A stretch of 52,182 nt of DNA from positions 70,911-123,092 of the forward strand of contig WAHY01000002.1 in assembly GCA_009873635.1 (NCBI GenBank). Reading direction: 5' to 3'. The first letter of the stretch is position 1. Every line of letters starts with the position of its first letter. Below are positions 42,141 through 47,659 of this stretch, one piece after another. Position numbers and translations under genes: made by a program. Origin of the DNA: Nitrospinota bacterium (GTDB taxonomy: Bacteria > Nitrospinota > Nitrospinia > Nitrospinales > VA-1). Below the pieces are notes generated by a model. It did no database searches, was not told where the DNA came from, and was given only the letters and a program-made list of their open reading frames with translations.

Positions 42141-43223
42141 ATGAAAACAGAATTCGATATTGCGGTATTCCCCGGTGACGGAATTGGGCCAGAAGTGATT
42201 CAAGAGGCACTGAAAATTCTTAAAATTATTGAATCGAAACTGGGTATTAAAATAAATGTCAATGAGGCACTTGTTGGCGGTGCTGGTTACGATGCTACTG
42301 GACACCCTTTGCCGGATGAAACTCTTAAAACGGCGCAAAATGCAGATGCGGTTTTGTTGGGTGCGGTCGGTGGCCCCAAATGGGAGAACATTGATTTTTC
42401 ACTTAGGCCGGAAAGGGCTTTACTGGGTCTTCGTTCTAACTTGGGGCTATATGCCAATCTGCGTCCTGCGCGTATTTTCCCGGCTTTGGTCGAGGCCTCT
42501 ACTTTGAAACGTGAAGTGGTGGAAGGTCTGGACCTTCTCGTTGTACGCGAATTAACCGGGGGAATTTATTTCGGGGAACCACGAGGGATTGATTCGCTGG
42601 ATGATGGGACCCGAAGAGGATTCAACACCCTGGTTTATACAGAACCTGAAGTTGAAAGAATTTCCCGCATTGCCTTTGATGTAGCCCGCAAACGTAATAA
42701 ATCTGTTTGTTCTGTTGATAAAGCCAATGTGCTTGAGGCGACTGGTTTCTGGCGTGAGGTTGTGACGAACCTGCACTCAGAATATTCGGATGTAAGTCTG
42801 TCGCACATGTATGTGGATAATTGCGCTATGCAATTGGTGAGGAACCCTAAACAATTTGATGTGATTCTGACTACCAATATGTTCGGCGATATTTTAAGTG
42901 ATGAAGCTTCCATGTTGACAGGGTCAATAGGCATGCTGCCTTCTGCCAGTCTTGGCGAGAAATATGCCATGTATGAACCGATTCATGGTAGTGCCCCAGA
43001 TATCGCGGGTAAAGAACTGGCTAATCCGCTGGCCACAATATTATCTGTGGGGATGATGTTCAAATACTCTTTGGATTGTGAAGAGCCGAATGAATGGATT
43101 GAGACTGCTGTTGAAACGGTATTGAGTAAAGGGGTCAGAACAGCGGATATTATGTCTGAAGGAATGAAACAGGTGGGTACGAAAGAAATGGGCGATCTGA
43201 TTGCAGAAGAGTTGGAGAAGTAG
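42141..43223 (+). CDS. leuB: 3-isopropylmalate dehydrogenase
   Basis: 360 residues. NAD-dependent oxidative decarboxylation in leucine synthesis. Seen: [12 protein letters not shown] at the N-terminus, the substrate-binding block [11 protein letters not shown]...[24 protein letters not shown], and [15 protein letters not shown] followed by [10 protein letters not shown]. The [11 protein letters not shown] loop favours LeuB over isocitrate or tartrate dehydrogenases. I start at the ATG at 42141; AGGAG lies 13 nt upstream, a long spacing, and a TTG at 42129 is too close to it. asd follows after one base. Confidence 0.96.
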
Positions 43224-43224
43224 A

Positions 43225-44250
43225 ATGCTGGATAAAAAAGAAGCTTATGATGTTGCCGTTGCTGGTGCCACAGGCGCAGTGGGAAGAAAAATGCTGGAAA
43301 TTCTTGAACAGAGAAAATTTCCTGTTGCCAGCTTAAAAGTTCTTGCGTCTGCACGATCGGTGGGTCAGGCATTGCCATTCAATGGCAACTCACTGGCAGT
43401 TGAAGAGTTAAAGGAAAGTTCTTTTGAAGGTGTGGATATTGCCCTTTTTTCGGCAGGTGCTGGTGTGAGTCGTCAGTTTGCTCCCTTTGCGGTGAAATCC
43501 GGTTGCATTGTGATTGATAACAGCAGTGCTTTTCGTATGGAACCGGATATCCCTCTTGTTGTTCCAGAAGTGAACCCGGAAGCAGTTGGAGATGACCCCG
43601 GCGTCATCGCAAACCCTAACTGCTCAACCATTCAAATGGTCGTAGCGTTAAAGCCGATTCACGACCAGTTTAAAATAAAACGTGTTGTGGTTTCCACTTA
43701 CCAATCTGTTTCTGGTTCGGGGCAAAAGGCTATTGAAGAACTGCATAGCCAGGCACAAAGTGTCCTGTCCGGGAAACCGCCGGAGAATAATGTATATCCT
43801 CATCAAATCGCATTTAACTGTTTGCCACATATAGATAATTTTCTTGATAGCGGATACACAAAAGAAGAGATGAAGATGGTGAATGAAACCCGAAAGATTT
43901 TGGAAGATGATTCCATTCAAATCTCACCGACTACGGTTCGAGTGCCGGTATTTTATTCTCATTCTGAGTCTGTAAATGTTGAAACCGAAAAGCCCATCAG
44001 TGCTGGAGAAGTTAAAAAGTTATTATCTGATGCTGTTGGAGTTATGGTGGTTGACAACCCCGAAACTAACGAATACCCGTTGGCGATTGATGGTGAGGGT
44101 AGGGATGATGTGTTTGTTGGCAGAATCCGCGATGACATCTCTTGTGAAAACGCCATAAACTTCTGGGTTGTGTCCGACAATTTACGTAAGGGAGCGGCTC
44201 TTAATGCTGTTCAAATAGCAGAACTTCTCGCACGCAATGCTCAAAAATGA
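43225..44250 (+). CDS. asd: Aspartate-semialdehyde dehydrogenase
   Basis: 341 residues. Reduces aspartyl phosphate in the lysine/threonine/methionine pathway. VAGATGAVGRKMLEIL forms the NADP site; the catalytic Cys is Cys133 in NPNCSTIQMV; the Q-S-V-S-G-S-G-Q segment and the conserved RVPVFYSHSESV follow. The start is the ATG at 43225, one base after the leuB stop; the longer frame lies inside leuB. The leuB-asd order is widespread. Confidence 0.96.
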   Translation: MLDKKEAYDVAVAGATGAVGRKMLEILEQRKFPVASLKVLASARSVGQALPFNGNSLAVEELKESSFEGVDIALFSAGAGVSRQFAPFAVKSGCIVIDNSSAFRMEPDIPLVVPEVNPEAVGDDPGVIANPNCSTIQMVVALKPIHDQFKIKRVVVSTYQSVSGSGQKAIEELHSQAQSVLSGKPPENNVYPHQIAFNCLPHIDNFLDSGYTKEEMKMVNETRKILEDDSIQISPTTVRVPVFYSHSESVNVETEKPISAGEVKKLLSDAVGVMVVDNPETNEYPLAIDGEGRDDVFVGRIRDDISCENAINFWVVSDNLRKGAALNAVQIAELLARNAQK

Positions 44251-44274
44251 ATATTTGTTAAGTGGGTATCCCGC

Positions 44275-44303
44275 TTGACATTTATATGCCTTAAGTTTAT
44301 AAA
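44275..44303 (+). promoter_or_regulatory. Near-consensus sigma70 promoter for the coiled-coil gene
   Basis: TTGACA (6/6) at 44275-44280, a 17-bp spacer and TATAAA (5/6) at 44298-44303. Start predicted near 44310, about 65 nt before the ATG. It is the best promoter seen in the window. Confidence 0.72.
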
Positions 44304-44374
44304 ATATAGTACCTTATGGTATTTGGGGTTTGTCCCCATGCCAAAAATAAATCCTATTTGAAACAGGTCCTGTT

Positions 44375-46645
44375 ATGGCTGAAGATTTCAAACCTGAGAA
44401 TCCGCAAAGTTCCTCACCCTCAGAAAAAGCCGGTTTTAATACTAAAGAGTTTAAAGAACTCATCAAACATGCTTCTCATGAACGCAAGAACCTGCAATTG
44501 CTCGTGGAGTATTTTGAGAAGAAGTCAGGAGAGCTTGACGATAAAAAAAAGTCTTTTGACAAGCTGAGTGGGCAGGTGCCGGATGCCTTAAGAAAACTGG
44601 ATTCTCTGGATACCCGATTTGAAGAAATTAAGACTTTTGATGTTAGGGTACGTGATTTCCAACGTGTTTCTAAAGAAGTCAATTCAAACTATAACACCCT
44701 GAAACGCGATTTAGAATCGCTGCATTTACTAAACGAGCATATAGACAGCAAAATTAAGAGCCTGGGCCAGCAAAAACTTGTTGTCGAAAAAGCTAATGAG
44801 GATGCAGGTCGTCTCAATGTCCTGGTCTGGGACATGGATTCAAAGGTCAAAAAACTTCGGGAAGAAAGTAAGCTCCTAAAATCTGCAGATCGTAATATCG
44901 ACCGACTTGAGCACATGCTGGATAGTGTCTCCAGTCAGGTTCAGGATGTTGTCAACATGAAAGAACTGTTGAGAACTGCTGCGGTTAAAGTTGGGGTTAT
45001 GAAGGACACCCTGGGTGAGCTGGATAGCCGTTATGACAGGATTAAACAGGATAAAGAAACTATAGAAAGTCATACCAGGGATACGGAAGAACTGAAACGT
45101 ATTCTTGCAAGTGTCCAGTCTGATTATGAAAAGCTCCTTGGGCAGAGCCATATGATCAATGAAACCCAGGAGACCCTCCACAACCTGATGCAGCAAATTA
45201 GTGATCTAAAAATAGAGTCTAAGAATATTTCGGTGAAGAACGAAATGATCCGAAGTATTACTGGGCGTTTGAGGGATTTGGACGCTTTGTCAGTGGATGT
45301 CGAGACCAAAATAGCTCGGATTCAGGACGAAAAGTCCATGATCGAAAAGACAGAGGAAAAAATACATAAGCTCAATTCTTTTCTCATAGACAATCTTAGC
45401 AACAAAATGAAAATTTTGAAAGATGAGATGAAAGTCATTGATGATGCCAATGAGAAAATGAGCCGCTTCAATGTAATGGCTGAAGAAGCTGAGCAAAAAG
45501 TTGCACGGCTTGATGATGATATCAAGAAAATTGATACCATTTCCGGGATCCTGAAGCAGGTTGAAGTGATGAATGAGTCCACACAGCAACAAATGGACGA
45601 GATCATCCGCAAGCAACAAATGGTGGATCAGGTAGACAAAAAGATTAATGACCTCAGTTCGATGGTCATCAGCCTTGATGTGAAGATGGAAACCCAGATG
45701 CAGAGGAAAGCTCTCATTGAAAAAATGGAGAAGAAGGTCGATGGCCTGGATTTCTTCATTGAGGAGGCAAACATTAAGATTGCCAAGGTTTCCAAAAAAA
45801 TCGACTTCCTTGAAAAAGTAGATCAAAAGTTTGAAGATTTAAAATCGATGGCAAATACCCTTGAGGAAAATATCCTCGATATGGCTAAAGAAAAGGCCGC
45901 AATTGATGACCAGGAAAAACGGATGAACAATATTTCCTCGAAACTGAGTATTCAGGAAATAGAATTGCGTACCCGTTTTAAAGAGGTTCAGGAAGCCAAG
46001 GATGAGATTACTAAAATTGATCAGATTCGTGAAGAGTTGGGACATATAACGACCAACTTCGAAAGTAAAATGGAAGCCCTGATTAAGGACTCTTCACAGG
46101 TTGAAAAAACCGATGCCAAGCTCCAGGAACTTGATAGCTTGATGAAGGATTTACGTGACAGGCAAGATGCCCTGGACGAAAAGCAGGAGTTCATGCTTGA
46201 AGTTGAAAAGAAAATGGACCAGCTTGGCAATATGCTGGAAAGAACGGAAAACCGTATCTCACAGGTTCAGGAAAGTGATGAAAAAGTCAAGCGTACCCAG
46301 CAGGCACTGGGTGAACTTGAAGTTGTCATTAACCGTACAAATACTGAAAAGGCTAGAATCGATAAGGAAAGAGAAAACCTTGATAAAATAAACTTGAATA
46401 TTGAAAAGCTGACGACAATTACTGAAGATGCAGAGTCTAAAATTGATCAGCTTAATAGCAAAATCAGTATGCTGGGCGAGGTGGAAAAACGTTTAAGTTC
46501 GTTAAACCTGCTTGCTGAAGATGTTAGTGTCAAGGTTCAAAATCTCAAAAAAGAAGAAGCCTTGTTCAGCAAGGCTGGAGAACAAATCGCGGAATTGAAG
46601 TTTTTGTTGAGCGAGGTAGAAAGAAAAAAACAAGATTCGGCATAG
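44375..46645 (+). CDS. Large coiled-coil protein of ~20 tandem 31-residue repeats
   Basis: 756 residues, no signal peptide, no membrane segment, no ATPase motifs. After a low-complexity N-terminus (about 1-25) the whole chain is heptad-like coiled coil. From about residue 150 to the end it divides into units of 31 residues, each starting I/V/L-x-K-x-x-x-K-I/L and then x-x-L at positions 9-11, with a second hydrophobic set near 14-15 and 21-25. Only a few units deviate (one of 32, one insertion of about 4). 31 residues equals four heptads plus three, so every repeat carries a stutter. Acidic and lysine-rich; probably a cytoplasmic filament, spacer or scaffold. I recognise no family. Own promoter at 44275. 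Confidence 0.85.
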   Translation: MAEDFKPENPQSSSPSEKAGFNTKEFKELIKHASHERKNLQLLVEYFEKKSGELDDKKKSFDKLSGQVPDALRKLDSLDTRFEEIKTFDVRVRDFQRVSKEVNSNYNTLKRDLESLHLLNEHIDSKIKSLGQQKLVVEKANEDAGRLNVLVWDMDSKVKKLREESKLLKSADRNIDRLEHMLDSVSSQVQDVVNMKELLRTAAVKVGVMKDTLGELDSRYDRIKQDKETIESHTRDTEELKRILASVQSDYEKLLGQSHMINETQETLHNLMQQISDLKIESKNISVKNEMIRSITGRLRDLDALSVDVETKIARIQDEKSMIEKTEEKIHKLNSFLIDNLSNKMKILKDEMKVIDDANEKMSRFNVMAEEAEQKVARLDDDIKKIDTISGILKQVEVMNESTQQQMDEIIRKQQMVDQVDKKINDLSSMVISLDVKMETQMQRKALIEKMEKKVDGLDFFIEEANIKIAKVSKKIDFLEKVDQKFEDLKSMANTLEENILDMAKEKAAIDDQEKRMNNISSKLSIQEIELRTRFKEVQEAKDEITKIDQIREELGHITTNFESKMEALIKDSSQVEKTDAKLQELDSLMKDLRDRQDALDEKQEFMLEVEKKMDQLGNMLERTENRISQVQESDEKVKRTQQALGELEVVINRTNTEKARIDKERENLDKINLNIEKLTTITEDAESKIDQLNSKISMLGEVEKRLSSLNLLAEDVSVKVQNLKKEEALFSKAGEQIAELKFLLSEVERKKQDSA

Positions 46646-46807: not shown

Positions 46808-47659
46808 ATGGCTGAAAAAATCCTGGGTGTGATCGGCGGAAGCGGATTGTACCAAATGAAGGGCCTTGAGGTGATTGAAAAGGTAGTTGTTGACACTCCT
46901 TTTGGATCACCTTCCGACAACATTATCATAGGGAGGCTGGAAGGGGTTAAAGTCGCTTTTCTCCCCCGGCACGGGGTTGGCCATGTCATACCGCCCTCTG
47001 AAATAAATTTTCGGGCAAATATTTTCGCAATGAAAAAAATTGGTGTTGATCGGATTATTTCCGTGAGTGCGGTAGGGGGGATGAAGGAAAATATGCCACC
47101 CGGTCACTTCGTTGTGCCTCATCAATTTATTGATAGAACATTTAAACGTAACAGTACATTTTTCACTCAGGGAATGGTTGGCCATGTCAGTATGGCTGAC
47201 CCAGTTTGTCTTGCAACAGCGGGGGTGCTTTTTAAAGCGGCTCAAAAAGCTGGTGCGGACGCTCATGAAGGAGGTACCTATATTTGTATCGAAGGGCCTC
47301 AGTTTTCCACCCGGGCCGAGTCGCTTTTGTACAGACAATGGGATGTAGATGTAATAGGCATGACAAATGTTACTGAAGCAAAGTTAGCCCGTGAAGCAGG
47401 TATCTGTTATTCGACTCTGGCTTTGGTCACTGACTTCGATTGCTGGCATATAGAAGAAGAACCTGTTACTCTCGAAGCTGTGTTGGAAATCATGCATAAA
47501 AATGTTGAACAGGCGCAGAAAGTTTTAAAAGAGCTGATACCCATGTTGGGTACTATTGAGCCTTGTTCATGTTGCGATGCGGCCAAGTTTGCTGTTGTCA
47601 CAGATCCTGAGAAAATCCCGCAAAACCTTAAAGAAAATCTCTCAATTTTATTTGGTTAA
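46808..47659 (+). CDS. mtnP: S-methyl-5'-thioadenosine phosphorylase
   Basis: 283 residues. Phosphorolysis of methylthioadenosine in methionine salvage. Seen: [14 protein letters not shown] at the N-terminus, [43 protein letters not shown], and the [13 protein letters not shown] block with T-D-F-D. The N and D there fit a 6-aminopurine enzyme rather than a guanosine/inosine phosphorylase. GGAG sits about 10 nt before the ATG. It lies 5 nt before hemL. Confidence 0.93.

Follow-up and report, generated by a model that had tools for sequence, protein, structure and literature searches.

A long coiled-coil rod protein with a 31-residue stammer repeat in Nitrospinota and other phylum-level groups

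A gene in the genome of a Nitrospinota bacterium (contig WAHY01000002.1) was found to encode a coiled-coil protein composed largely of 31-residue units. As 31 residues are equal to four heptads plus three, each unit carries one stammer (period 3.456), which overwinds the coil and makes the rod tightly wound. A long, essentially all-helical rod of ~105 nm is well supported. Across distant groups the sequence of the protein has changed much and its length has stayed almost constant, which suggests an undescribed scaffold protein. The gene lies in a window of 52,182 nt, this being the whole stretch of DNA that was analysed; the features of the gene and its surroundings are listed in Table 1.

Table 1. 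Features of the rod gene, its protein product and its immediate surroundings (window coordinates)
Feature	Position	Strand	Residues	Basis or remark
asd (aspartate-semialdehyde dehydrogenase), conserved upstream neighbour	43201..44250	+		Named by sequence inspection
11-bp inverted repeat, terminator-like for asd transcript	44256..44280	+		Overlaps -35 hexamer
Sigma-70-like promoter TTGACA-N17-TATAAA (predicted)	44275..44303	+		11/12 consensus, conserved
CDS, coiled-coil rod protein	44375..46645	+		756 aa; Cys absent
N-terminal tail	44375..44440	+	1-22	Predicted disordered; length varies
N-terminal coiled coil	44441..44710	+	23-112	Conserved motif ERKxLQxLVEY
31-residue repeat array	44711..46621	+	113-749	~20.5 units
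Most conserved block (LVEKANEEAGKLNVLxWDMESKxKKL)	44729..44914	+	119-180	Surface and core, across phyla
+1 phase slip (skip residue)	45377..45379	+	near 335	Phase model, window periods
Second conserved block	45608..45814	+	412-480	Alignment, conservation
Third conserved block (ILDxxKEKxxIDxQEKR)	45872..45922	+	500-516	Alignment, conservation
+4 phase slip (true stutter)	45938..45949	+	near 522	Self-match diagonals, phase model
C-terminal conserved block (LNLLAEDVxxK ... AGEQIxELKFLLxEVEKK)	46472..46630	+	700-752	Alignment, conservation
mtnP-like phosphorylase, conserved downstream neighbour	46808..47659	+		Named by sequence inspection; then hemL, eno

Repeat structure and coil geometry

When residues 113–750 were compared with themselves using BLOSUM scores, the 31-residue lag gave a z-score of 13.5, followed by harmonics at 62 (11.2) and 93 (10.1); lags that are multiples of the heptad were weak (3.2 at 28 residues and -1.3 at 56). 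In SMC from the same genome, taken as the control, the lags peaked at 7, 14, 91 and 98 and the value at 31 was about zero. A significant 31-residue period, as put forward in the preliminary description, was therefore recovered, and the earlier estimate of about twenty units starting at about residue 150 came near to the ~20.5 units from residue ~113 that were delimited here. Two other explanations of the repeat were rejected: a plain heptad coil with a chance signal at 31, ruled out by the lag statistics, the SMC control and a heptad simulation, and an α-solenoid of 31-residue hairpins, ruled out by the long-helix predictions and the near absence of proline (P69 is the only one after residue 15).

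In the phase model of the array the units were gapless within three blocks, namely residues 113–335, residues 336–522, displaced by +1, and residues 523–749, displaced by a further +4, with these two slips as the only ones inside the array. The units had been described as exactly 31 residues long and without gaps, which is correct inside each of the three blocks and fails at the two slips between them. Profile self-comparison over the orthologues likewise placed most strong diagonals at 0, 1, 4 or 5 modulo 31 and a smaller number at offsets related to the heptad. Each unit possesses nine core positions with the spacing 3-4-3-3-4-3-4-3-4; core column 9 is usually polar, with Lys as the commonest residue, and the hydrophobic signal is smeared across columns 11–12 and 25–26. 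The N-terminal coiled coil (residues 23–112) has the same 3.46 period as the array, yet lies out of the 31-residue phase.

A surplus of three residues over a heptad pattern is a stammer, which raises left-handed winding, and a surplus of four is a stutter (PMC4786415). The mean hydrophobic period of the rod protein was 3.4556 residues, compared with 3.5000 ± 0.0006 for simulated plain heptads, and fell between 3.4554 and 3.4567 in all 26 homologues of one alignment (A2). The preliminary description had assigned a stutter to each unit and expected an unusually straight rod; both points have to be revised, as the three-residue surplus is a stammer and the repeat overwinds the supercoil instead. 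In 80-residue windows the period was 3.43–3.48 all along the protein, and only the +1 slip fell outside this range (3.55). For a free helix of 3.63 residues per turn, arithmetic gives an expected supercoil pitch of ~72 residues (~108 Å), against ~98 residues (~146 Å) for heptads. If ~725 residues are helical the rod would measure roughly 105–110 nm, in agreement with the ~100 nm first estimated. Among non-heptad coiled coils, most exceed a period of 3.5; the solved structures with a single stammer show a strained helix that locally becomes a short stretch of 3-10 helix (PMC4786415).

AlphaFold2 models of the monomer, which were of low confidence (pLDDT 66–69, pTM 0.2), gave a disordered segment (residues 1–22), a helix with breaks over residues 23–755 and a very short C-terminal tail. 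The breaks fell at residues 142–148 or around residues 469–490, near two of the most conserved blocks, and could represent hinges, a folded-back monomer or an artefact of modelling a coiled coil as a monomer.

Distribution, length and conservation of the family

Of the 57 Nitrospinota genomes that were at least 80 % complete, 43 carried an orthologue, and all 24 loci located in named genomes belonged to Nitrospinota, mostly Nitrospina or Nitrospinaceae. When 387 genomes from across the domain were searched with a profile, six further genomes were positive, and follow-up in the phyla of these six found an orthologue in 15 of 21, one of three, one of one, seven of 15 and four of nine genomes. 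Beyond the class Nitrospinia, which the orthologues span, no fewer than five other phylum-level groups contain them, where ‘phylum’ denotes the GTDB rank; some of these groups may be former Nitrospinota classes (PMC10839748), which leaves the depth of the split uncertain. No match to the rod protein was obtained in a plasmid search.

The complete short-form homologues that were aligned comprised 745–767 aa. Among the 26 A2 sequences, which were 25–64 % identical to the query, only one indel event was detected across residues 30–751, an 11-residue deletion in one family. Enzymes encoded at the same locus also had few indels, but at higher identity. Two larger changes of length were found, each by whole turns. 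One genus (L070 and L086) lacked ~69 residues (95–164), corresponding to 20.0 turns at 3.4557 residues per turn, and with them the family's most conserved block, whilst a long form of 887–896 aa in one phylum (L085, L098 and L099) carried 128 additional residues near the N-terminus, corresponding to 37.0 turns.

Relative entropy was maximal at residues 121–175 (peak NEEAGKLNVLxWDM), 421–475, 500–516 and 701–752. Within these peaks the surface positions were approximately as conserved as the core positions, with a C-terminal surface peak near residues 741–752. Since a plain rod needs no surface conservation, the sequences indicate that these blocks are likely to be partner or assembly sites.

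The rod gene was cleanly lost beside intact neighbours at four loci (L105, L106, L108 and L111). Such losses, seen in several Nitrospinota genomes, show that it is dispensable and not essential in every lineage. In LS_NOB (L044:5770–6240, and L066) only the first ~11 and the last 74 codons were left, mutually out of frame, with the promoter and the neighbouring genes intact; either the gene was lost recently here or the assembly is faulty. In the L071, G071, G414, G416, G417 and G419 assemblies the rod gene was split between frames or carried frameshifts or in-frame stops, which may reflect sequencing error or decay.

Gene neighbourhood and proposed role

The gene order leuB-asd-CC-mtnP-hemL-eno-divIC-HU-queA, in which CC is the rod gene, was kept in Nitrospinia, and the segment CC-mtnP-hemL recurred in another phylum (L089, L090 and L093), which supports vertical descent. 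Functional coupling to asd, mtnP or hemL was considered and is weakened by the several genomes in which the rod gene is cleanly missing beside these intact neighbours. The predicted promoter of the rod gene was kept in 12 other closely related loci. It had been singled out as the best in the window, and its 11/12 consensus does place it at the top, as joint best. The inverted repeat behind asd ends exactly inside the -35 hexamer of this promoter and could couple termination with initiation. A box like ACATAGTACCTTATGG just 3′ of the -10 hexamer (window 44304–44325) was kept in close relatives more strongly than the rest of the leader.

In two other phyla, represented by L080 and by L084, L096 and L097, a class A penicillin-binding protein (PBP; PF00912 and PF00905) was encoded directly downstream of the rod gene on the same strand, at a gap of 15–67 bp, the PBPs of the two phyla being 45 % identical. 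In a third phylum (L098 and L099) the long form was followed by a B-box-like protein that contains a polysaccharide deacetylase domain (PF01522). In a second phylum an HU-like DNA-binding gene was located divergently just upstream of the rod gene (L082:9394–9687 and L094:1184–1474), and an NAD(P)HX epimerase/dehydratase was encoded downstream of the rod gene at these loci.

No membrane segment was seen in the rod protein (maximum 19-residue Kyte–Doolittle mean 0.64), which is therefore probably cytoplasmic. Our favoured reading, tentative and somewhat short of an even chance, is that it represents an undescribed family of cytoplasmic coiled-coil scaffolds that form an in-register polymer under the inner membrane and organize peptidoglycan synthesis or cell shape. 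In this reading one rod of roughly 105–110 nm would be wound from at least two parallel chains, and each 31-residue unit (nine helical turns) would add one stammer, so that the rod would be uniformly overwound at ~3.456 residues per turn. The overwinding would be relieved at only two fixed points, the skip residue near 335 and the stutter near 522. The fixed length would matter if the molecules pack laterally in register, in an intermediate-filament-like or myosin-like manner, through the conserved blocks, and the resulting polymer could then act on the wall or on cell shape from beneath the inner membrane. Both the polymerization and the wall link are steps that we infer, and the latter rests on two or three groups, because the neighbours in Nitrospinota and in the largest other phylum are metabolic genes.

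A non-polymerizing molecular ruler or tether, in which a single ~105-nm dimer would space two partners, such as the envelope and the nucleoid or a pole and a complex, is an unlikely reading that nevertheless carries real weight. Its partners would bind two of the conserved blocks, one near residue 150 and one at the C-terminus; the locked length, the conservation in separated blocks and the HU-like gene of L082 and L094 are all consistent with it. However, conserved blocks also occur inside the rod (residues 421–475 and 500–516), not only near its ends, and one genus has lost ~69 residues and the most conserved block with them, a deletion that would not be tolerated in a strict ruler. The length lock and the in-rod blocks together favour, short of proof, lateral assembly over a simple tether.

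Comparison with known coiled-coil proteins

No Pfam or NCBIfam model was specific to the rod family, and the Pfam matches were to short generic coiled coils. The earlier remark that no known filament family came to mind stands in so far as no named plain-heptad filament family was matched, but overlooked the NCBIfam SpiroCoCo models (NF047514, NF047515 and NF047516), which have the same 31-residue, nine-turn column pattern and were matched in 25 of 25 A1 members. The name SpiroCoCo was not found in the literature searched. The whole protein scored 127.9 bits with SpiroCoCo_C (NF047515; cut-off 125) and 72.3 bits with SpiroCoCo (NF047516; cut-off 36). The SpiroCoCo_C profile is itself 31-phased: the phase origins of most fragments lay near 18, 49, 80 and 111, and for four of six fragments the offset was clearly a multiple of 31. 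These results would agree with true membership of SpiroCoCo and the same (unknown) function as in the spirochaete family. On the other hand, the score with SpiroCoCo_N (NF047514) was 72.3 bits, below its curated cut-off of 75, and the SpiroCoCo_C score was the sum over several overlapping stretches, of which the best single match reached 57 bits. A control shuffled within the 31-column classes scored higher with SpiroCoCo_C than the real protein (138.1 bits), compared with 39–44 bits after shuffling within hydrophobic/polar classes, 62 after reversal and 54 after removal of three residues per unit. As the column shuffle raised it, this score is unable to separate homology from a shared pattern; the SpiroCoCo coil is likewise built on a 31-residue stammer, and it is this pattern that the match records. 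Orthology on score alone was dropped after these controls, and we consider true membership improbable.

A headless SMC/Rad50-like chromosome protein acting on DNA is very unlikely. SMC and Rad50 are also long coiled coils, and all members gave weak matches to the SMC_prok_B, Rad50 and ASRP models, but the rod protein had no match to SMC_N (the ATPase head) at E ≤ 1, the same genome encodes its SMC as a separate gene, and the 3.456 period and lag-31 peak are not those of a plain heptad coil. Moreover, removing three residues per unit raised the SMC score from 45 to 90 bits and made SMC the best match, which identifies these matches as generic heptad similarity. Least probable of all is a motility or chemosensory scaffold, either HmpF-like or receptor-associated, as the weak HmpF match (30 bits; cut-off 200) was shared by altered control sequences and the chemoreceptor gene upstream of the rod gene was found in one genome only (L093).

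Other parallels concern architecture. Scy and FilP of Streptomyces have 51-residue repeats that mix heptads and hendecads and give an underwound coil; they are likewise bacterial coiled-coil scaffolds with a long non-heptad repeat, whereas the repeat of the rod protein overwinds instead. The myosin rod (28-residue repeats with a few skip positions) and tropomyosin (about 39-residue quasi-repeats), both eukaryotic, resemble the rod protein in their architecture, as length-locked coiled coils with a long repeat. Like crescentin and intermediate-filament-like proteins, it has a long coiled-coil rod and, towards the C-terminus of that rod, a stutter (the +4 slip near residue 522), and it may share one or more disordered ends with them, residues 1–22 being disordered in the low-confidence models. 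The crescentin rod, of ~364 residues with one stutter (PMC10873595), is about half as long as the rod protein, which differs further from crescentin in having 31-residue stammers all along in place of plain heptads. No sequence match to crescentin was found: a profile search of PDB sequences (E ≤ 0.01) returned only 29 weak generic coiled-coil matches, with crescentin absent.

The broadest form of the scaffold proposal, which is speculative and at present doubtful, is that of an ancient cytoskeletal class, defined by a fixed-length overwound 31/9 coil, that occurs in at least six phylum-level groups, polymerizes in register and directs class A PBPs. If this were true, it would provide a natural coil that is kept under 3.5 residues per turn from end to end. 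With ~20 regular stammers, almost free of indels across phyla, the family offers a direct test of the overwinding that a natural coiled coil can carry and of the way in which it does so. Should the rod protein act as a cell-wall synthesis scaffold, uncultured phyla would gain a cytoskeletal family, and so would the nitrite oxidisers that dominate in the sea, among which helical or curved forms occur (PMC8026999).
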